Assembly: GCA_002692855.1 (NCBI GenBank)
Contig: NZMJ01000134.1
Span: forward strand, 27,277-91,276
DNA length: 64,000 nt
Source: Maricaulis sp.
GTDB lineage: Bacteria; Pseudomonadota; Alphaproteobacteria; Caulobacterales; Maricaulaceae
Reading direction: 5' to 3'
A program made the position numbers and the translations under genes. Positions 2,937-37,788 of the stretch are shown here, one piece after another; position 1 is the first letter of the stretch, and each line of letters starts with the position of its first letter. The notes beneath the pieces were generated by a model. That model worked only from the letters and a program-made list of their open reading frames with translations. It was not told the origin of the DNA and made no database searches.

Positions 2937-4697
2937 CTACTCCCCCTGCTGCGCGGCGATCCACGCGGTCATGTGCGCATCAAGGAAGTCGAGCGGCACG
3001 CCGCCATTTTCCAGCATTGCGTCATGGAAGGCGCGGATGTCGAAATCCTCGCCGAGGGCTTCTTCGGCGCGGGCCCGCAGGTCGCGCATCAGGAGTTCGC
3101 CCGACTTGTAGGCAAGCGCCTGGCCCGGCCAGGAGATGTAGCGGCTGACCTCGGTGCGGACATTGTGCGGCGCGAGGGCCGAGTTTTCGAGGAAGCAGGC
3201 CTCGGCCTGTTCACGGGTCCAGCCATACCAGTGAATGCCGGTATCGACGACGAGGCGGCAGGCGCGCCACATCTCGTAGGTCAGGCGGCCGAAGCGCTCA
3301 TAAGGCGTCGTATAGAGGCCCATGTCCTCGGCGAGCGTCTCGGTATAGAGGCCCCAGCCTTCACCGAAGGCGGTGATGTATGCGTTGCGGCGGAATTCCG
3401 GAACGTCCTCCATCTCCTGCGACAGCGCGATCTGGAGGTGGTGGCCCGGCATTGCCTCGTGCACGGTCAGCGAGGGCAGGTTGTAGAGCGGGCGCTGGGA
3501 AAGATTGTAGGTGTTGACCATGTAACCGCCAGCGACGCCGTTTTCGGCATCACCCGGCCAGTAACGGCCGGTGGTATAGGTCGGTGCGATCGAGGCCGGG
3601 ACCGGCCGCACGCCATAGGGCAGGCGCGGTAGGCGGCCGAAGAAGCGCGGCAGCTGGTCGTCGGCGCGCTTGGCGATCCAGGCGGCATGCATCAGCAATT
3701 CTTCTTCCGTCTCGGCGTAGAATTGCGGATCGGTGCGCAGGAAGTTCAGGAAATCGGCAAAGCTGCCTTCGAACTCGACCTCCGCGATGATGGCGTCCAT
3801 CTCGCCGCGGATGCGTTCGACCTCTGCGAGTCCACGCGCGTGGACTTCCTCGGGGCTGGTATCGAGCGTGGTGTGGTAGCGCACCAGCGTCTGGTAGAGG
3901 GCGCGGCCATCCGGGACTTCGGAAATGCCCAGGCTGTCGCGCGAACCCGGTATGTATTCGGACTCGAACCAGTCCGCGAGCTCGGTGTAGGCGGGCAGAA
4001 CGGTGTCAGAGATCACGGCGAGACCTTCGCCGCGCAGGCGCTCGCGCTCGGCCGGGCTCATGCTGGCGGGCAGGTTGTTGAACGGCGCGAAGAAGTCGCT
4101 CTCCTCGGCGCTGGTGTTCGCGATGGCGCGCATCTGGTCGAGAACGCCGGGCAGGATGTTGCGCGGCTGGACGAAGCCCGTGGAGAGGCCGTTTTCCATC
4201 CACGCACGATTCTGGTTCAGGAAAAGCGGAACAGCCTCGAGGCGCGCAATCCAGTCTTCGGCATCCGCAACCGAACGCAGGCGGGTCGAGGCAGCCGTGT
4301 AGACCGGGCCGGTGAAGAAGCCGCTGTCATTGGAAAAGGGGACGCGCTCCATCTGGAAGGGCGCCAGCTCGACCCGGTAGCGCAGGAGGTAATCCAGGAC
4401 CGCGTAGGAGACCTGGTCATTCTCCGCAAGATTGTCGGCCTCGATCGCTTCAAGGCGGTCGAGGAAGGCCAGCTCGGCGGCATTGCGCGACTCGACGGTT
4501 GCACTCGACAGGTCTGCCCATCGGCGTGCGGCCTCGCGGTCACCGTCCCGGCCTTCGCCGACCGGGTCGCCCGCCGATTCGTGGGCTTCGAATTCGGCAA
4601 TCAGTGCCGCGAAATCATCGGCATCGTCGGCCCATGCCGATGTGGCCGACACGGGCGCAGACAGAAGGGCCAGTGCGGCCAGGGTGGTGCGGATCAT
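2937..4697 (-). CDS. DUF885 family secreted protein (putative metallopeptidase-like)
   Basis: Signal peptide MIRTTLAALALLSAPVSATSAWA; LTVHEAMPGHHLQIALSQE and AFGEGWGLYTETLAEDMG motifs typical of DUF885. Confidence 0.85.
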   Translation of the reverse strand: MIRTTLAALALLSAPVSATSAWADDADDFAALIAEFEAHESAGDPVGEGRDGDREAARRWADLSSATVESRNAAELAFLDRLEAIEADNLAENDQVSYAVLDYLLRYRVELAPFQMERVPFSNDSGFFTGPVYTAASTRLRSVADAEDWIARLEAVPLFLNQNRAWMENGLSTGFVQPRNILPGVLDQMRAIANTSAEESDFFAPFNNLPASMSPAERERLRGEGLAVISDTVLPAYTELADWFESEYIPGSRDSLGISEVPDGRALYQTLVRYHTTLDTSPEEVHARGLAEVERIRGEMDAIIAEVEFEGSFADFLNFLRTDPQFYAETEEELLMHAAWIAKRADDQLPRFFGRLPRLPYGVRPVPASIAPTYTTGRYWPGDAENGVAGGYMVNTYNLSQRPLYNLPSLTVHEAMPGHHLQIALSQEMEDVPEFRRNAYITAFGEGWGLYTETLAEDMGLYTTPYERFGRLTYEMWRACRLVVDTGIHWYGWTREQAEACFLENSALAPHNVRTEVSRYISWPGQALAYKSGELLMRDLRARAEEALGEDFDIRAFHDAMLENGGVPLDFLDAHMTAWIAAQQGE

Positions 4698-4777
4698 GGA
4701 AAACTCCCCGAGTGATGTTCTTGGGGGAGAGTCTAGCCGCAGGACGACGCGCGCGTCAGCCCCAAATCCCTGCGCGC

Positions 4778-6460
4778 CTAGACCGGCAATCCCGCAAGAC
4801 GGGCGGCGCAGCCATTGGCAGCCAGATCGCCCTCCGCCGGAATGATGCGCTGCAATCGCCGCGTCTCGCCGGTCGCCGGGCGATAGCGCAGGTCCTGCGT
4901 CCCGGCTTCTGACCGGACCCGTAGGACGCTGTCCACGCTGGCATCGCCCACCGCGCCTTCCAGCCGTTCGAGAATGACCATGCCGGGGCGGAATCCGGCA
5001 GGCCAGGCGGGGCCGTCCCGGTCGACTGCGGAGATGACGAATTGCCCGTCCTCGTTGCGGTCCCCGGTCATGCCGTAATCGAAGACCGGCTCATCGACCG
5101 TTTCCACGGTACCGCAGGGGCCGAAGGTGTCACGGGCCAGCTCGACCGGCTCGCCGTTTTCGATGTGGCGGGTCACCAAGCCGGAGATGTCCACCCCGGT
5201 GACCGACAGGACGGTCGCGGCGAAGCGGGCGGGTGCGGGCCCCTCGTCTGCGGCATCGCGCATCGCCATGATGACATCGTCCAGATCGAATTCACCGCCT
5301 GTCCGGGTGCGGATCTCGTGGTCAACGAGGGCGGCGAAGATCTCGCCGCGATGATAAGGCAGGCGCTGCGCGTCCCGGTTCTGCCAGAATTGTTCGCCGA
5401 TCACCGCGTTGGGCGCATCGCGCAGCGGAGAGGACGCATTCTCCGCGAGGACAACGTTCCAGTGAGCCAGAGCAGTCTGGGCCGGCCAGATGCCGCCCCG
5501 CACTCCGGCGCGCGTGGTCAGGAAATCGGTAAACCCCTCGGAGAACCAGTATCCGGCGGCTTCGTCGCCCGGGTCACCGGGCAGGGCGCCGCCCAGCCGC
5601 TTGATGTTCCAGGTATGGGTGTGCTCGTGCGCGAGAATCCGGGTCAGCGTTTCGAGGTCGGCATCGGTCGTCACGAACATGGCGAAGGAATCGTCGAGAT
5701 TGGTGCCGCCGATGCTGGTCCAGCCCTCGTCGGCCTCGAGCGGCAGGACGGTGACGAGATAGGGTTCGCCCTCGGCTTCCCAATAGGCGAGATTGCCGGT
5801 GATGACCGTCTCGACCTGGTTCATGAAGGTCGTGTCGTCGACATCGATCGCACCGCGCATCGCGATGCGGATGTCGGCGCCGGAAACGCGCCGTGTCTCG
5901 ACCCGGAAATCGCCTGCCACGATCACACTGGCCCCCAGTGCCGTGTAATCGAGACCGTCGTGCTGGAGATCCGAGGCCAGCGCCCAGCCATTGGGCACGA
6001 CCAGGTCGACCCTCACCCCGGCTTCGCGGTCCCGGTCCGGCTCGGCGAAAATGGTGTGGCCGATCAGGTGGACATAGCCGGGCTCGGCATAGGGGCGGTA
6101 GTAGTCGTCCGTCGCGGCGCGCGGGGGGCCGGACCGGTCCGGGACGACCTGATAGCGAACGACCAGTTCTGCGCCGGGGGCGTGGGTGATCTCGCGGCGT
6201 TCCGGGGCGGTGGCGGGCGCAAACGCCGCGTCTTCGCCCGAAACCTGCAAGTCGTGGACGACCCGCCAGAGCTCGCTCTCGCCGCCCCAGAAATCCGGCA
6301 AGTCGAGCCCTGTCTGACCGTCCTCGTCTCCGGTGAAGCGCAGTTCGACCCGGATCGTGGCGGGGGCCGTACCGTCGGCTTCGACCGTGACGGTGTAATG
6401 GGCGTCGATGATTGCCGGTTCACTCAATGCCGCCGCTGCGGCCAGAATCGCTACGAGCAT
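4778..6460 (-). CDS. M61-family-like metallopeptidase
   Basis: MLVAILAAAAALSEPAIIDAHYTVTVEADG...ILAHEHTHTWNIKRLGG (HExxH) ...WFSEGFTDFLTTR; C-terminal PDZ-like segment. Confidence 0.75.
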   Translation of the reverse strand: MLVAILAAAAALSEPAIIDAHYTVTVEADGTAPATIRVELRFTGDEDGQTGLDLPDFWGGESELWRVVHDLQVSGEDAAFAPATAPERREITHAPGAELVVRYQVVPDRSGPPRAATDDYYRPYAEPGYVHLIGHTIFAEPDRDREAGVRVDLVVPNGWALASDLQHDGLDYTALGASVIVAGDFRVETRRVSGADIRIAMRGAIDVDDTTFMNQVETVITGNLAYWEAEGEPYLVTVLPLEADEGWTSIGGTNLDDSFAMFVTTDADLETLTRILAHEHTHTWNIKRLGGALPGDPGDEAAGYWFSEGFTDFLTTRAGVRGGIWPAQTALAHWNVVLAENASSPLRDAPNAVIGEQFWQNRDAQRLPYHRGEIFAALVDHEIRTRTGGEFDLDDVIMAMRDAADEGPAPARFAATVLSVTGVDISGLVTRHIENGEPVELARDTFGPCGTVETVDEPVFDYGMTGDRNEDGQFVISAVDRDGPAWPAGFRPGMVILERLEGAVGDASVDSVLRVRSEAGTQDLRYRPATGETRRLQRIIPAEGDLAANGCAARLAGLPV

Positions 6461-6551: not shown

Positions 6552-7430
6552 TTAGTCTTCCTCGCCGGACCTGCGATCCTCGGGGCGCAGCCCGATCCGC
6601 TTCCTGACCTGCGCGTCGACGAATTTCTCGGGCAGCAGGCGGGGCAGGGACCAGTTGGTCAGGCGCTGGGGCACTTCAGCATAGCGCAGGCGCGGGCTGT
6701 CGGCGGTCAGGGCGTGGTGGACGCGTCGGCCGATGCGTTCGGGCGGCAAGCCCTCGGGGCCGCTTTTCTGCATCCATTTCATGACCCGGTTCATGGCGGG
6801 GACGTAGTCGGTATCGCGGTACTGTTCGACATCGATCTCCTCGGCCTTGTCCCAGATCGGGGTGGCGACCGCTCCGGGACCGATCAGGACACAGTTGATG
6901 CCGTAAAGCCCCAATTCCTTGCGCAGTGACTTGGTCATCCCCTCAAGCGCATGCTTGGACGCCGCATAGGGACCCACGAAGGGCATGCCCATCTTTCCGG
7001 CGACCGACGACATCATCACGATCCGGCCGGGCTCGCCGATCCGGCCATCCTCGGCGCCCAGCAGGGGGGCGAAGGCCTGAACCGTGCGCAGGACGCCCAG
7101 CACGTTCACGTCCATCTGCTTTTCAACTTCGCTGATATTGATGTGCAGCAGAGGTCCGGCGACGGCGATGCCGGCATTGCAGACAAGGCCGTCCAGCGTG
7201 GATTGACCCAGCGCGGCGCGAACCTGATCGGCTGCGGCCTTCAGCGTCGCTGCCTGGGTGACGTCCATCTTCAGCGGGGTGACCTTGTCGGCGAAATCCG
7301 ATTTCAACCGCGCAGCATCCTCGTCCTTCCGTATCCCCGCGAAAACGTGGAAACCCTTTTCGATCAGAACTTTCGTGGTGGCGTGACCGATCCCGGTCGA
7401 GGCGCCCGTGACAACGGCGGTCTGGGACAT
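6552..7430 (-). CDS. Short-chain dehydrogenase/reductase
   Basis: VVTGASTGIGHAT, LVCNAGIAVAGPL, MMSSVAG, YAASKHALEGM SDR motifs. Confidence 0.9.
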   Translation of the reverse strand: MSQTAVVTGASTGIGHATTKVLIEKGFHVFAGIRKDEDAARLKSDFADKVTPLKMDVTQAATLKAAADQVRAALGQSTLDGLVCNAGIAVAGPLLHINISEVEKQMDVNVLGVLRTVQAFAPLLGAEDGRIGEPGRIVMMSSVAGKMGMPFVGPYAASKHALEGMTKSLRKELGLYGINCVLIGPGAVATPIWDKAEEIDVEQYRDTDYVPAMNRVMKWMQKSGPEGLPPERIGRRVHHALTADSPRLRYAEVPQRLTNWSLPRLLPEKFVDAQVRKRIGLRPEDRRSGEED

Positions 7431-7734
7431 CGGGGTCTCCCTACGTTTCTCTCGGGCAACCTAGACCGTTTCGCATTACAAACCAGCCGAAACCCGTTCC
7501 GAGACCAAGAACACACAGGGCGATTAAGGGCGGGGAGCAGGCCACCTGCATCATTTGATGCTGCCGGGCGCCATCGTCCGCTCGGTGAGATTCTGCATTG
7601 CGATGCTGCACCCGCGTTGACCCTTGCCGCTCCGGGTCTATTCTCCGGCAGACATTCGTTTGACCGGTGATTTGCTCGAGGCTCTGCCTTGCTGGGGGGC
7701 AGCCGCCGGTCCCGACCGCGAAAGGGACGAAGCG

Positions 7735-8139
7735 ATGACGTCGGAGACTTCTGATCCGCGTCCGCTATCACCACACCTGCAGGTGTGGCGCTGGCACGCG
7801 ACCATGCTCACCTCCATCCTGCACCGGGTCACCGGCATCGGCCTTTATATCGGCGCAGCCGCGCTGACGGTGTGGCTGGTGATGCTGGCAACCGGCACGA
7901 ATGGCAGCGTCAGCTTCCTGTTCGAGGGCGCGATGGCCTGGGTTACGCGCGCCGGGCTGATCGTGCTGACGGCGTGCGTCGCCTTTCATTGGTTCAACGG
8001 GCTGCGCTTCCTGTTCTGGGACGCGGGCAAGGGCTTTGATCCCAAGGGGTCGAGCCAGCGCTCCGTGGTCATCCTGATCGCCGCCTTCCTGGCGACGGGC
8101 ATCGTGTGGACGATTTTCCTGACCGGAGGTGCGGCATGA
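7735..8139 (+). CDS. sdhC: Succinate dehydrogenase cytochrome b556 subunit
   Basis: MTSETSDPRPLSPHLQVWRWHATMLTSILHRVTGIGLYIG; followed by sdhD and sdhA. Confidence 0.95.
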   Translation: MTSETSDPRPLSPHLQVWRWHATMLTSILHRVTGIGLYIGAAALTVWLVMLATGTNGSVSFLFEGAMAWVTRAGLIVLTACVAFHWFNGLRFLFWDAGKGFDPKGSSQRSVVILIAAFLATGIVWTIFLTGGAA

Positions 8140-8513
8140 GCGGCATGATGACTCCGCGCAAGCGGGTTCGCGGCTACGGTGCCGCAGGGTCGGGCACCGG
8201 GCACTTCATCCAGCAACGGGTCAGCGCGATCGCGCTCTTCATCCTGATGCCGATTTTCGTGATCACGCTGGGGCTGGCCGGTGCGCCTGACCCCGACGCC
8301 TCGCGCGCCTTCTTCGGTTCGCCGCTGGGCGCGCTCGTATCACTGCTGACGATGAGCGCGGCGCTTTATCACGGGCGGTTGGGCGTCCAGGTCGTGATCG
8401 AGGATTACATCCACAAGACCTCGACCAAGGCGACGCTTCTGATCGTCAACACCTTCCTCGCCGCGGGTCTTTGGCTCGCCGGCGTCTATTCGCTTCTCAC
8501 GTTGGCGCTCTAG
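8136..8513 (+). CDS. sdhD: Succinate dehydrogenase membrane anchor subunit
   Basis: Small membrane protein with [19 protein letters not shown]; between sdhC and sdhA. Confidence 0.95.
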
Positions 8514-32251: not shown

Positions 32252-33145
32252 GTGATGTTACGGCTTCTGATCCTCATCGCAGTACTGGCTGTTCCGACGA
32301 TGGCCGACGCCCAGGCGCGGCCGGTGCTAATGCGTCTGTGCAACGACGCGCCGTTCGCGGTTGGCGTTGCGGCAGCGTACAACACGACGCCAAGCGGTGG
32401 CCGCCGGGCGGAAGGCTGGTTCCGGGTCGAAGCAGGCGACTGCCTGGAAGGCGCGCTGCACGGCGTGGCGGGAGACCGGATGGGTCTGGCTGCCTTTTCC
32501 GGCACGTGGCAATGGCCCGCCGGGGAGGCGGCTTTTTCCCATTGCCTGCCCGCGGACAGTTTCAACACCGGCGTGCTCGACGTGCCGCCCTGCGCCGATA
32601 CGGTGCGCGAGATCGCCTTCACCTCCCGGCCCATTCGCCCCTTCCGGGCGGAATGGGGCGTGGTCGACTGGCGCGTCGGCTGCGCCGATTTCGGTGAGGA
32701 TGCGGATTTATGCCTGGGCTCGCCGGTGGAGCGGGACGGCTATTCAGCGCCCGTGCGGGAGTTGCAGGTCTGCGGGCCCAGCCTGGAAGGCGGACTGGTC
32801 GCGCTGGCCGAGCCGGTTGATGCCAACACCTGGCGCGTGCGCGGCTGGATGGCTCTGGAAGCGGACAGTTGTGTCGTCGTCTATAGCGGTTTTCCAAACG
32901 GAGACCGGGTGTATGTGCATGGCCATGCCGCAAGCGAGGCAGCGGTTAGCACGACGCGCGTCGGAGGCCCTACGCGGGCGACATTCTGCGCGTCGGGAGA
33001 TGTGTTCGACATCACCGCGCCCGCCAGCGAGATCTTCAATACTACCGAATGCCCGCCCGAAGCTCCCTATCCGGTCGTGTTCGACCGAATCCGCTGGCAA
33101 TCGAATGTGTCGCGCTTCACGCACTTCTTCCGCGCCGGCGGGTGA
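32252..33145 (+). CDS. Secreted protein with apparent tandem DUF1036-like halves
   Basis: LMRLCNDAPFAVGVAAAYNTTPSGGRRAEGWFRVEAGDCLEGALHG and LQVCGPSLEGGLVALAEPVDANTWRVRGWMALEADSCVVVYSG. Confidence 0.55.
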   Translation: MMLRLLILIAVLAVPTMADAQARPVLMRLCNDAPFAVGVAAAYNTTPSGGRRAEGWFRVEAGDCLEGALHGVAGDRMGLAAFSGTWQWPAGEAAFSHCLPADSFNTGVLDVPPCADTVREIAFTSRPIRPFRAEWGVVDWRVGCADFGEDADLCLGSPVERDGYSAPVRELQVCGPSLEGGLVALAEPVDANTWRVRGWMALEADSCVVVYSGFPNGDRVYVHGHAASEAAVSTTRVGGPTRATFCASGDVFDITAPASEIFNTTECPPEAPYPVVFDRIRWQSNVSRFTHFFRAGG

Positions 33146-33147
33146 AC

Positions 33148-33783
33148 TTACCAGCGCAGCAGGCGCGGACCCATGAGGGCGCCCAGTAGCGCCACGATCA
33201 GAACTGCGCCCTGATACCAGACCGCCAGGAAGGTCAGGCTCGTTTCGGTGCAACTGAGCGAATAGACCGCTGCACCTGCAGCGCCTGCAAACAGTCCGGC
33301 GGCAAACCCGGCCAGGCGCAGCCGGGTCGGGGCCATCGCGCGCAGCACCAGGATGCTGGCTGCGAAGACCGGCAGGGCGGCTGCGATCACACGCGGCACG
33401 CAGCGATTCCAGGAATGACCCAGGAGCGTTTCGGTCCGCAAGTCACTCGGCGCGATCGCCAGTACGATCAGTCCCGCAGCCAGCACCAGACCCGCAACGA
33501 GCATGGAAACCACCAAGCCGCGCCCGCCCGTACCATCGGGGCGGGACAGGGCGAACAGGGACAGGGCCGCGCCGGCAGCAATCGCGACCATTGCAGCCAG
33601 CTTTACCCAGAAGGACGGAAGGGTGAGGGCGCCGGGCATGTCGGGACGGACCCCGATCCAGAGGACGACAAACAGGGTGGAGATCGTCAGGGCGGGCAAG
33701 ATCCACCGCAGAGCAAGATGGCGCAAAGGGCGGGGCGATACCGGCTCCAGGTCGTTGACCAGATCGTCGATAGGGTTCGTCAT
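33148..33783 (-). CDS. nrsF: NrsF-type (DUF1109) membrane anti-sigma factor
   Basis: Six-TM protein MTNPIDDLVNDLEPVSPRPLRHLALRW...WNRCVPRV...YSLSCTETS; adjacent to an ECF sigma factor. Confidence 0.88.
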   Translation of the reverse strand: MTNPIDDLVNDLEPVSPRPLRHLALRWILPALTISTLFVVLWIGVRPDMPGALTLPSFWVKLAAMVAIAAGAALSLFALSRPDGTGGRGLVVSMLVAGLVLAAGLIVLAIAPSDLRTETLLGHSWNRCVPRVIAAALPVFAASILVLRAMAPTRLRLAGFAAGLFAGAAGAAVYSLSCTETSLTFLAVWYQGAVLIVALLGALMGPRLLRW

Positions 33784-34337
33784 GACGTTCCGTCTCCTGG
33801 AGGCGTCGCACCCAGCGCAGCGGTTTTCAGTCCCCGGTGCACGCTGACCTTCACCGAGGATTCCGTGGTCCCGAGCCGGTCAGCGGCTTCGCGTGCCGTC
33901 AGTCCGGTCAGCCGGGTCATCCGGATCGCAGCCGCCTGCTTTGCGGGCAGGCGGGCGAGCAGGGTCTCGACATCAAGCCGTGCGGCGATGGCTGGTTCGA
34001 TAGCCATCACTGCATCGTCGTCCTTGAGTTCGACCGTGACCCGGCGGCTGTGGCGCCGGTAATGGTCGATCAGCTTGTAGCGCGCAATGCCATAGAGCCA
34101 ACCGGAGAAGGGCCGGGCGGCGTCATAGGTAGCGCGTTTGTCATGCACGGCCATCAGTGTTTCCTGTACCAGGTCCTCGGCGCCAGCCTGGTCCCGGGTC
34201 AGGCGGCGGGTGAAATAGGCCAGCAACGGCGCGCGCACGGATTCCAGCAGCGTACGATAGGCCTGCCGGTCACCGGACTGGCTCAGCACCATCAGGGCGC
34301 GGAAGGCGATTTCGCCGTCGGTCATGACCCTTGTCAC
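33780..34337 (-). CDS. sigF: ECF sigma factor, SigF-type
   Basis: FTRRLTRDQAGAEDLVQETLMAVHDKRATYDAARPFSGWLYGIARYKLIDHYRR...LTAREAADRLGTTESSVKVSVHRGLK; start overlaps with nrsF partner. Confidence 0.9.
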   Translation of the reverse strand: MTRVMTDGEIAFRALMVLSQSGDRQAYRTLLESVRAPLLAYFTRRLTRDQAGAEDLVQETLMAVHDKRATYDAARPFSGWLYGIARYKLIDHYRRHSRRVTVELKDDDAVMAIEPAIAARLDVETLLARLPAKQAAAIRMTRLTGLTAREAADRLGTTESSVKVSVHRGLKTAALGATPPGDGTS

Positions 34338-34344
34338 TGCCTTA

Positions 34345-34370
34345 TTCGCTGGTCGCGCGCGAAAGGTTAC
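34345..34370 (-). promoter_or_regulatory. Candidate SigF autoregulatory promoter GTAACC-N16-CGAA
   Basis: Plus strand TTCG (34345-34348) N16 GGTTAC (34365-34370); reads GTAACC-N16-CGAA on the minus strand upstream of sigF. Confidence 0.7.
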
Positions 34371-34560
34371 AGGCGCGCCGGACTGTCTGACATGTTTAGC
34401 GCCAAATGCGCCGCGGCGTCATGCCGGAACCGCCAGGCAACCGCCAGTCGCAATCAATCACGGGGCCGTGACCATCAAGTGACTGTGCCAATTATTCAAA
34501 TAAAATCAGTTGCTTGTGCCGTTACCACTGCTGGAGCGACAAATACGACGTATTCGGAGT

Positions 34561-34586
34561 GTAACGATCGGGCGTCCTTCAGCGAA
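34561..34586 (+). promoter_or_regulatory. Candidate SigF promoter GTAACG-N16-CGAA upstream of the bufferin-type operon
   Basis: GTAACG at 34561-34566, 16-nt spacer, CGAA at 34583-34586. Confidence 0.7.
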
Positions 34587-34648
34587 TGACCCAGTGCCGC
34601 ACCCGAAAAGGTCGGCGCTCGTGTTTCAATCTCGAAGGAAATGAATCC

Positions 34649-34942
34649 ATGAACACCCGCTCCAAGATCGCTGCCGTCACGGCGTCCGCCTTTGCCCTGT
34701 CGATGGCCGCCGCCGTCGCGCATGCCGATGACGAAGACATGTCGCCGGAAGGCCAGGAACGCTGCTACGGCGTGTCGCTGGCTGGCGAAAACGATTGTGC
34801 CGCCGGCGAGGGCACGTCGTGCGCTGGAACCTCGACGGTCGATTACCAGGGAAATGCCTGGACCTATGTCGACGAAGGCACCTGCGAAGACATCCAGACG
34901 CCCTATGGCACTGGTTCGCTGACTCCGGTCGAACGTCCGTAA
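34649..34942 (+). CDS. bufA1: DUF2282 family, BufA1-like bufferin precursor (97 aa)
   Basis: [26 protein letters not shown] signal peptide; [46 protein letters not shown], four Cys. Confidence 0.9.
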
Positions 34943-34964
34943 TCTCCCCCCGACGGCGTTCGCG

Positions 34965-35843
34965 ATGACCTCCACCCACACCCCCGCTTCCCCTCCTGGA
35001 GCCGGTATCGGCCTCAAGCCGGCGCACTATCGCGCCGCGCTCGAGAGCGAAGCCGACGGGTTGTGGGTGGAGGTGCATCCGGAAAATTACATGGGGGAGG
35101 GCGGGCCGCGGCTCGCCTGGCTCGACGCCATTGCCGAACGGCACCCCGTGTCCCTGCACGGCGTATCGTTGTCGCTGGGCGGCGAAGAGCGTCCCGACAA
35201 GGACCATCTGGCGCGCTTTCGCGGCCTGGTCGACCGGTTCCGGCCGGCCCTGGTGTCGGAACATCTCGCCTGGTGCCGTCATGACGGTGTCTATTTCAAC
35301 GACCTTTTGCCCCTGCCTTATACGCGCGGCGCGCTGAACCGCTTTTGCGACCATGTTGAAGAAGCGCAGGACGCGCTCGGCCGCCCGATACTGATCGAGA
35401 ATCCGTCGCTCTACCTGTCGCTCAAGGGCGAGATGAGCGAAGGCGAGTTTCTGGGCGAGGCGGTTCGCCGGACGGGGTGCAGCCTGCTCCTCGATCTCAA
35501 CAATGTGGTCGTGACCGCGAACAACCTGGCCCGCGAGGTTCACGCCTATATCGACGCCTTCCCGCTCGAAGCGGTGCGCGAAATCCACCTGGCCGGGCAT
35601 GAGGCTGATGGCGATCCGGATACCGGTCTGCTGATTGACACTCACGGGGCGCCGGTCAGCGACCCGGTCTGGACGCTATACGCCCATGTCATCGCGCAAG
35701 CGGGCCCGCTGCCGACACTGATCGAGCGCGACAACAATCTTCCTGCGTTTGACGTCCTGATGGACGAACGCGCGCAGGCGCAGGCGGTGCTCGACCGCGC
35801 GGCTGCTTCACCGGGACGCAAGGCGGCCCTGTCACATGTCTGA
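34965..35843 (+). CDS. bufB: DUF692 family multinuclear non-heme iron oxidative enzyme (MNIO), BufB-like
   Basis: GIGLKPAHYRAALESEADGLWVEVHPENYMGEGG...VSLHGVSLSLGG...LVSEHLAWCRHDG...LLDLNNVVVTANN...EIHLAGHEADG...LIERDNNLP. Confidence 0.93.
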   Translation: MTSTHTPASPPGAGIGLKPAHYRAALESEADGLWVEVHPENYMGEGGPRLAWLDAIAERHPVSLHGVSLSLGGEERPDKDHLARFRGLVDRFRPALVSEHLAWCRHDGVYFNDLLPLPYTRGALNRFCDHVEEAQDALGRPILIENPSLYLSLKGEMSEGEFLGEAVRRTGCSLLLDLNNVVVTANNLAREVHAYIDAFPLEAVREIHLAGHEADGDPDTGLLIDTHGAPVSDPVWTLYAHVIAQAGPLPTLIERDNNLPAFDVLMDERAQAQAVLDRAAASPGRKAALSHV

Positions 35844-36582
35844 CGCCGGCTTCCATGCCCGCTTCGCGGCCGTCCTGCGGGGCGGAAAGGATGTGGCGCG
35901 CGATGGCTTCGTGCCGGAACCGGGACACGCCGCGGCGCTGAGCGTCTACCGCAATACCGTTGTGCGCGGCGTGATCGATGTGCTGGGCGACAATTATCCG
36001 TCCGTCCGATTCCTTGCCGGAGATGGCAATTTCGCGGCGCTGGCCAAGTCCTACTGGCAGGCTCACCCACCGCACGCCGGGCCGATGCTGCTCTATGGGG
36101 ACGGCTTTGCCGACCATCTCAGCCACGAGGCGCCGCGCGGCATGCCTGCCTTCCTGCCGGCCATCGCCCGCATCGACCGCGCCTGGGGGGAGGCCCACCA
36201 CAGCGCGGATGCGCCCACCTTGTCGCCGGGCGATATCCGCACGCTGGACGCAGACGGGTTTTCCGGTCTGTTCGTGGATCTCCATCCTTCCGTGAGGCGT
36301 CCGGCCCATGACCGGCCAATTCTTACGACCTGGACGGCAGCGCGGTTCCAGTCGCGGGTCGAGCGGGCGGGGACGCAATGCGAGGAGACAGTCCTGGTGT
36401 GGCGGCCCGCAATGGAGGTGCGCTACCGCACGCTCTCGGCCACGGAAATCATACTCCTGAACGCGCTGGATGACGGCCTGCCGCTCGGCGAGGCCGCGCA
36501 TGTGAGCGGCGCCAGCCCTGATCTTTTCATCCGTCTGTTGAAGGACGGCGTCTTCGCGAGGGACAGACATGACAGAATTTGA
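35836..36582 (+). CDS. bufC: DUF2063 family, BufC-like partner protein
   Basis: HAAALSVYRNTVVRGVIDVLGDNYPSVRFLAGDGNFAALAKSYWQAHPPHAGPMLLYGDGFADHL. Confidence 0.9.
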   Translation: MSDAGFHARFAAVLRGGKDVARDGFVPEPGHAAALSVYRNTVVRGVIDVLGDNYPSVRFLAGDGNFAALAKSYWQAHPPHAGPMLLYGDGFADHLSHEAPRGMPAFLPAIARIDRAWGEAHHSADAPTLSPGDIRTLDADGFSGLFVDLHPSVRRPAHDRPILTTWTAARFQSRVERAGTQCEETVLVWRPAMEVRYRTLSATEIILLNALDDGLPLGEAAHVSGASPDLFIRLLKDGVFARDRHDRI

Positions 36583-37147
36583 TGGCAATCCACCCCTCTT
36601 CGGGCCGCTCGGGCGGCTCTATTACCGGGGTTTCGGGGCGGTTCAGCGCGTCGTCACCCACGATGCGACGGCGCTATTCCTGCGCGTCGTCATTGCCGGA
36701 GTGTTCTGGCGGTCGCTCCTGACCAAGGTGCAGACCTTCGGCCTGTTCGGCTACACCGAGCTGATCAATGACTTCGCGGTGCAGCGTTATCACCTGAAGC
36801 TGCCCGTCCTGCCCCTTGATTTGCGCCCGGCCGTCATCGGGCAGTTCGAAGGCGACTTTGCCTTGCCGCTGATCCCCGGCGAGGTCGCCGCCTGGATGGC
36901 GACGCTCGGTGAATTCATTCTGCCCATCCTCCTGGTGATGGGTCTCCTGACGCGATTTGCGGCCGCCGGGCTTCTGGGCATGACGCTGGTCATCCAGATC
37001 TTCGTCTTCCCCGAAGCGTGGTGGGGCACACATGCTTTATGGGCCGCGATCCTGATCTACCTGGTGTCACGCGGCGGCGGGCGCTGGTCCGTGGACGGAC
37101 TGGCAGGGCAGTTCGGTCCCCGGCTGGCCGCGCGCAGAGCGCCCTAG
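36569..37147 (+). CDS. DoxX family membrane protein
   Basis: FWRSLLTKVQTFGLFGYTELINDFAVQ...FILPILLVMGLLTRFAAAGLLGMTLVIQIFVFPEAWWGTHALWAAILIYLVSRGGG; overlaps the bufC-like gene. Confidence 0.88.
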   Translation: MTEFDGNPPLFGPLGRLYYRGFGAVQRVVTHDATALFLRVVIAGVFWRSLLTKVQTFGLFGYTELINDFAVQRYHLKLPVLPLDLRPAVIGQFEGDFALPLIPGEVAAWMATLGEFILPILLVMGLLTRFAAAGLLGMTLVIQIFVFPEAWWGTHALWAAILIYLVSRGGGRWSVDGLAGQFGPRLAARRAP

Positions 37148-37788
37148 CGGACGAAAACCAGATAGGCGCTGACGGCCGCCACGGGCGAGACTGAATCAAG
37201 ACCCGCGAGGGCTTCGAGCAGTTCGACCTGAGGTCCGAGCCGGAAATCACGCGCATCGACCATGACCGGTTCCGCGGTCGCGACGATCACGGTGTCGCGT
37301 CCGGCGCGGGTCACCAGCACGTCGGCGTAGATCGAGCGCGGCGTCGAGGCGAGCGTGACCGTCAGGGTCAGTTCGGTGCGGATGGTCTCGCCGATTTCGA
37401 GCGATTCAAATTCGTCGAGGTCGATCTGGGTGTCGATGGCGATCTGGGGGTGGTTGCGGCTCTGGAAGACATGCTCGACCAGGCGCTCATTGCGGATATC
37501 GACAAAGGTTTCGACCGTCTCGGTCTGGACTGCGACATGGGCGTTGCCGGCCTCGTCGACCGACCCGGTCAGGGTGGCAAAATGGCTGGCTTCCAGCACA
37601 CTCTCATTCTTCACCGAAACAAAGCTGAGCGTCGAAGCCTCGCCATTCAGCGTCCAGTCGGTTTGCGGCGTGTCCGAACAGGCCGCCAGCGTCACAAGGC
37701 TGCCGAGAATCAGCGATAAGAGGACGCGTGGCTTGAACATGGAGACACTCCGTGATGGGTTGCCGACTGATTTCGATCCATCATTCAT
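37144..37788 (-). CDS. YceI-like lipoprotein
   Basis: Lipobox LVTLAACSD; TDWTLNGEASTLSFVSVKNESVLEASHFATLTGSVDEAGNAHVAVQTETVETFVDIRNERL. Confidence 0.75.
   Translation of the reverse strand: MNDGSKSVGNPSRSVSMFKPRVLLSLILGSLVTLAACSDTPQTDWTLNGEASTLSFVSVKNESVLEASHFATLTGSVDEAGNAHVAVQTETVETFVDIRNERLVEHVFQSRNHPQIAIDTQIDLDEFESLEIGETIRTELTLTVTLASTPRSIYADVLVTRAGRDTVIVATAEPVMVDARDFRLGPQVELLEALAGLDSVSPVAAVSAYLVFVR

Follow-up and report, generated by a model that had tools for sequence, protein, structure and literature searches.

Organization of the locus

What does the six-gene block at positions 33148 to 37147 of a 64,000-nucleotide stretch of Maricaulis sp. DNA (contig NZMJ01000134.1; the whole stretch is referred to as the window) produce, and by what is it controlled? 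It is very probably a Buf1 (DUF2282) bufferin gene cluster under the control of the sigma factor SigF and the anti-sigma factor NrsF. This identity had been proposed in a preliminary description of the sequence, and it was supported by the analysis, as the gene families, their order, the promoters, the signal peptide and four-cysteine core of the precursor, and the catalytic and sensor residues all fit the system of Caulobacter (PMC3511200, PMC8224329, PMC12452194). No evidence was counted against membership in the cluster itself. The genes nrsF and sigF are located on the minus strand, divergent from bufA (DUF2282), bufB, bufC (DUF2063) and doxX on the plus strand. The following features were assigned.

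33148..33783, minus strand: nrsF, membrane anti-sigma factor (Pfam NrsF, 201.6 bits)
33780..34337, minus strand: sigF, extracytoplasmic function (ECF) sigma factor (Pfam Sigma70_r2 and r4_2)
34345..34370, minus strand: SigF promoter of sigF-nrsF, GTAACC-N16-CGAA (motif scan)
34561..34586, plus strand: SigF promoter of bufABC-doxX, GTAACG-N16-CGAA (motif scan)
34649..34942, plus strand: bufA, bufferin-1 precursor, 97 aa (Pfam DUF2282, 85.3 bits, cut-off 22.4)
34965..35843, plus strand: bufB, multinuclear non-haem iron oxidative enzyme (MNIO; Pfam PF05114, MbnB_TglH_ChrH, formerly DUF692, 338.3 bits)
35836..36582, plus strand: bufC, DUF2063 partner protein of the PME1 type (Pfam DUF2063, 62.5 bits)
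36569..37147, plus strand: doxX, DoxX-family integral membrane protein (Pfam DoxX, 51.9 bits)

The Pfam gathering cut-offs were used as the family threshold and were passed by all six gene products. The positions of the six reading frames and the families given for them previously (NrsF, SigF, DUF2282, DUF692, DUF2063 and DoxX) were thereby borne out; a search with hidden Markov models, which the preliminary description had recommended, placed 34965-35843 in the DUF692 family and 34649-34942 in DUF2282. The overlapping or nearly overlapping junctions noted earlier were also found on measurement: sigF and nrsF overlap by 4 nt (ATGA), bufB and bufC by 8 nt and bufC and doxX by 14 nt, and bufA and bufB are separated by 22 nt.

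Precursor and modifying enzymes

As judged by eye, BufA carries a Sec signal peptide ending in AVAHA, with DDED after the cut. The mature part comprises 71 residues and is acidic, with a calculated isoelectric point of about 4 and, when unmodified, a calculated average mass of 7458.8 Da. The computed positions of its cysteines (39, 50, 58 and 79) correspond to the four-cysteine Buf1 pattern, in which the central two cysteines carry thiooxazoles and the first and last form a disulfide (PMC12452194). No sequence match to BufA was present in the PDB. The earlier suggestion that this precursor may not have been described holds in part: the ortholog itself is unstudied, but the precursor has no unusual feature.

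BufB passed the curated NCBIfam model MNIO_BufB (NF050167) with 365 bits at a cut-off of 310, whereas against the HvfB model it reached only 237, under the cut-off of 360. In an alignment of 81 proteins the residues H65, E99, H100, D113, E145, N180, E206, H208, D225, H227, E254 and D256 were invariant and N179 was nearly so. BufB matched PDB entry 3bww (E=1.6e-42), and D225 and H227 are located in a 'DTHG' stretch aligned to that structure. They are probably the counterparts of D242 and H244 of HvfB, which are essential together with N175 (PMC13419390).

For BufC a sequence match in the PDB was not found. An AlphaFold2 model of the protein was obtained with a mean pLDDT (predicted local distance difference test score) of 91.8, and its only matches with E<0.001 were the TglHI entries 8hci_A and 8hi7_A and the DUF2063 entry 3dee (E 4e-5 to 2e-4). 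According to the model, BufC is a DUF2063 partner with the PME1 fold, like the solved MNIO partners. The operon also contains doxX, a gene that is frequent but not universal in Buf1 clusters.

SigF, NrsF and the two promoters

Cysteines C128 and C178 of NrsF were invariant in 45 of 45 aligned homologues, and their positions match the sensor pair C131/C181 of Caulobacter. Two SigF promoters, which the preliminary description had not reported, point outward within about 240 bp. The sigF promoter matches the Caulobacter motif GTAACC-N16-CGAA (PMC3511200) exactly, and the bufA promoter differs from it in one base, a G at position 6. With both spacers counted, 18 copies of the motif are present in the full, redundant 4.07-Mb assembly. 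A wider SigF regulon in the window genome was considered and rejected, since the inspected N16 matches elsewhere were inside or overlapped reading frames and gave no clear target.

The promoters also bear on the two divergent start codons. For sigF, the in-frame ATG at 34325, which gives 181 aa, is the more probable start, because the -10 element of the promoter reaches to 34345 and leaves only 8 nt up to the GTG at 34337. The start of bufA at 34649 is supported because the longer reading, from ATG 34586, overlaps the -10 element of its own promoter (34561-34586).

Comparison with known systems and proposed mechanism

The window locus is ordinary in kind, such a system being known already from Caulobacter. 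Caulobacter CC3252-CC3257 has the same gene content and divergent order, GTAACC-N16-CGAA promoters, the NrsF cysteine pair, a Sec-exported precursor with four cysteines, an MNIO, a DUF2063 partner and DoxX. Identities between the window proteins and those of C. vibrioides OR37 (L118) were about 60% for BufA, 58% for BufB, 33% for BufC, 38% for DoxX, 44% for SigF and 38% for NrsF. The Caulobacter operon depends on SigF (PMC3511200) and belongs to a set of just 11 genes that copper induced in every condition tested; disruption of sigF gives copper-sensitive cells (PMC8224329). While in Caulobacter another buf cluster and the operon msrPQ also belong to the regulon, the window genome contains a single DUF2282/MNIO locus. 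The betaproteobacterial gig cluster of Cupriavidus metallidurans is induced by gold, silver and copper; it has been described among the bufferin clusters (PMC12452194) and as homologous to the SigF cluster of Caulobacter (PMC8224329), and it is likened to the window locus by description only. The HvfABC or fontiphorin-type EGKCG captophorins likewise combine an MNIO with a DUF2063 partner and form thiooxazoles on exported precursors, as presumably also happens here, but their precursor is a Lys-Cys repeat peptide instead of a DUF2282 protein.

For the window organism we infer the thiooxazole chemistry, the metal binding, the signal and the phenotype from these homologues. At rest, the membrane protein NrsF would hold SigF. 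A metal or thiol insult, which in Caulobacter is copper and also chromate or cadmium, would act on the cysteine pair of NrsF and free SigF. Through the two GTAAC[C/G]-N16-CGAA promoters, SigF would then direct transcription of both sigF-nrsF and bufABC-doxX. Ahead of export, BufB with its partner BufC is expected to convert the central Cys50 and Cys58 of BufA into thiooxazoles. The precursor would then be exported by Sec, the signal peptide cut off, and a disulfide formed between the outer Cys39 and Cys79. The mature acidic peptide of 71 residues would finally bind copper in the periplasm, and DoxX may have an accessory role in the membrane.

Several points limit the support for a SigF-controlled bufferin cluster. 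BufA reaches no NCBIfam equivalog (25 bits with the BufA2 model, cut-off 60), NrsF remains below the NrsF equivalog cut-off (147.6 vs 300), and BufC and DoxX are below those of HvfC and HvfX. For BufA, NrsF, BufC and DoxX the case therefore rests on Pfam, synteny and structure. In addition, the Fisher test of promoter linkage given below counts kindred loci as independent.

An alternative is that the same biosynthetic operon serves mainly another thiophilic metal or envelope thiol or oxidative stress, copper being secondary. SigF of Caulobacter is induced by chromate and cadmium besides copper (PMC3511200, PMC8224329), the homologous Cupriavidus cluster responds to gold and silver (PMC8224329), and genus g14 has SigF/NrsF, together with this motif, next to a gene that is CcdA-like in L201 and thioredoxin-like in L200. 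We nevertheless regard this alternative as unlikely, because Buf1, where characterised, was shown to bind Cu(I)/Cu(II) and to promote growth under copper excess (PMC12452194), and loss of sigF gave a copper phenotype but none with chromate or cadmium (PMC8224329). In the two g14 genomes the SigF-type motif is located 5' of the CcdA-like gene adjoining sigF (L201 of G020, about 7220-8463) and 5' of the thioredoxin-like gene near sigF (L200 of G045, about 4484-4959), both families being assigned by eye. No MNIO or DUF2282 match was obtained in G020. The arrangement is a hint at a thiol-redox role of SigF in this sister genus.

It could also be argued that sigF/nrsF is a chance neighbour without control over the buf operon, since sister lineages have buf without sigF/nrsF and some genomes have SigF/NrsF without buf. 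However, in a set of 79 loci scored around related MNIO genes, 38 of 49 with linked sigF/nrsF had the motif upstream of bufA, against only 4 of 28 without, a difference (Fisher P=7e-8) that is only indicative because the loci are related; the reversed-pattern control gave 0. The G at motif position 6 recurred in 5 of the 38 linked loci. With few exceptions, the SigF promoter on the buf operon is confined to loci with linked sigF/nrsF, and control is directly proven in Caulobacter (PMC3511200), which makes a chance association highly improbable. Least credible is an operon that is intact but silent or decayed and retained by chance: the system is indeed patchy, as whole-genome searches of 119 relatives gave an MNIO in 33, DUF2282 in 32 and NrsF in 26, but all frames are open, the catalytic and sensor residues are invariant, both promoters are exact in their GTAAC[C/G]-N16-CGAA form, and a diverged metagenome-assembled genome (L050/G003, 52-81% protein identity to the window) retains everything.

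The sucC site in related genomes

The SigF-controlled bufferin cluster of the window is close-packed between two convergent neighbours. On the nrsF side, only two bases lie between the nrsF stop and the end of a DUF1036 gene at 33145. On the other side, the stops of doxX and of a YceI-like lipoprotein gene on the opposite strand (37144-37788, minus strand) overlap; the YceI-like gene is kept next to the buf operon in Hyphobacterium. In L050 the arrangement is identical and lies next to sucC, with sigF/nrsF and both promoters.

The same buf operon was found between the DUF1036 gene and YceI-MFS-sucC in Hyphobacterium (L051 and L052, and L053 within its short contig) and near sucC in Maricaulis-type loci (L055, L057, L058, L063 and L066). 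In contrast to the window, sigF/nrsF and the SigF promoter were absent from all of these loci, and a PhoD-like phosphatase gene (family by eye) was located immediately 5' of bufA. A search of the window genome with the PhoD-like protein gave no match at 1e-30. NrsF was not found in four MNIO-bearing genomes of the same genus (G002, G005, G006 and G007), and two further loci (L054 and L071) contained neither sigF/nrsF nor the PhoD-like gene.

In the MNIO tree, the window and L050 grouped with Glycocaulis and Hyphobacterium (support 97). The SigF-NrsF tree joined the window and L050 (99), adjoining Glycocaulis (85). Both trees thus pair the window with L050 and fit shared ancestry, so that the operon looks inherited within the family. 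Since relatives have buf at the sucC site without sigF/nrsF, mostly with a PhoD-like gene instead, the switch of a conserved operon appears to have been exchanged in situ. We tentatively propose that control of this copper-buffering operon for a ribosomally synthesized and post-translationally modified peptide was swapped in place near sucC, sigF/nrsF and the promoter against the PhoD-like gene, although we put the chance of this at slightly under even. That Hyphobacterium and Maricaulis share one arrangement speaks for a gain or replacement at the sucC site; it suggests that PhoD-buf is the older state and that sigF/nrsF came in, or came in with the divergent promoter region, in the window lineage. 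Simple vertical loss of sigF/nrsF in the other lineages is the less favoured direction of the exchange.

The locus adds a previously uncharacterised lineage within the Hyphobacterium/Maricaulis group to the known range of the SigF/NrsF-bufferin system, with all determinants intact, and leaves the picture of bufferin chemistry unchanged. What is new is that close relatives retain the same operon at the same sucC site without the SigF switch. One operon at one site, with and without SigF/NrsF, provides a clean comparative set for testing the signal and purpose of the regulation, and, if the in-place swap is true, the contribution of SigF/NrsF control could be tested directly in this family. Worth following are the regulator exchange and the lipoprotein bufferin, described below, that the SigF-less relatives carry.

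Upstream of bufA in L055, L057, L058, L063 and L066, phased direct repeats T[GA]AC were observed at spacings of 10, 11 and 21 bp. At 11 bp, 9 were observed vs 0.09 expected from dinucleotide shuffles, the sequences being related. These repeats are possibly response-regulator sites that replace SigF control.

The four NrsF-less genomes also contain a second DUF2282 gene, in each case with no MNIO gene nearby.

L196:6281-6820 (G002), minus strand: second DUF2282 gene
L197:5831-6382 (G007), minus strand: second DUF2282 gene
L198:6031-6528 (G005), minus strand: second DUF2282 gene
L166:1174-1686 (G006), plus strand: second DUF2282 gene

The encoded proteins consist of a bufferin core that ends a long acidic stalk rich in Ala, Asp and Met. 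They begin with an apparent lipoprotein signal (LALMAC, LALVAC), so this second bufferin is probably anchored in the membrane.

Assembly copies and other searches

A true duplication of the locus was ruled out. Contig C35 equals the window over 42,014 bp with 99.986% identity (6 mismatches); as it is a redundant contig, the genome holds one such locus. The assembly (G000) amounts to 4.07 Mb vs 2.2-2.8 Mb in the genus and contains redundant contigs, namely the pairs C35/C172, C8/C127 and C135/C155, of which those other than C35 are suggested by identical motif matches only. No RNA families were found in the window, and the five proteins compared with PADLOC (BufA, BufC and three neighbours) had no anti-phage match. 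In a plasmid collection, MNIO relatives with less than 60% identity were present on 351 plasmids, including plasmids of Escherichia, Klebsiella and Salmonella.

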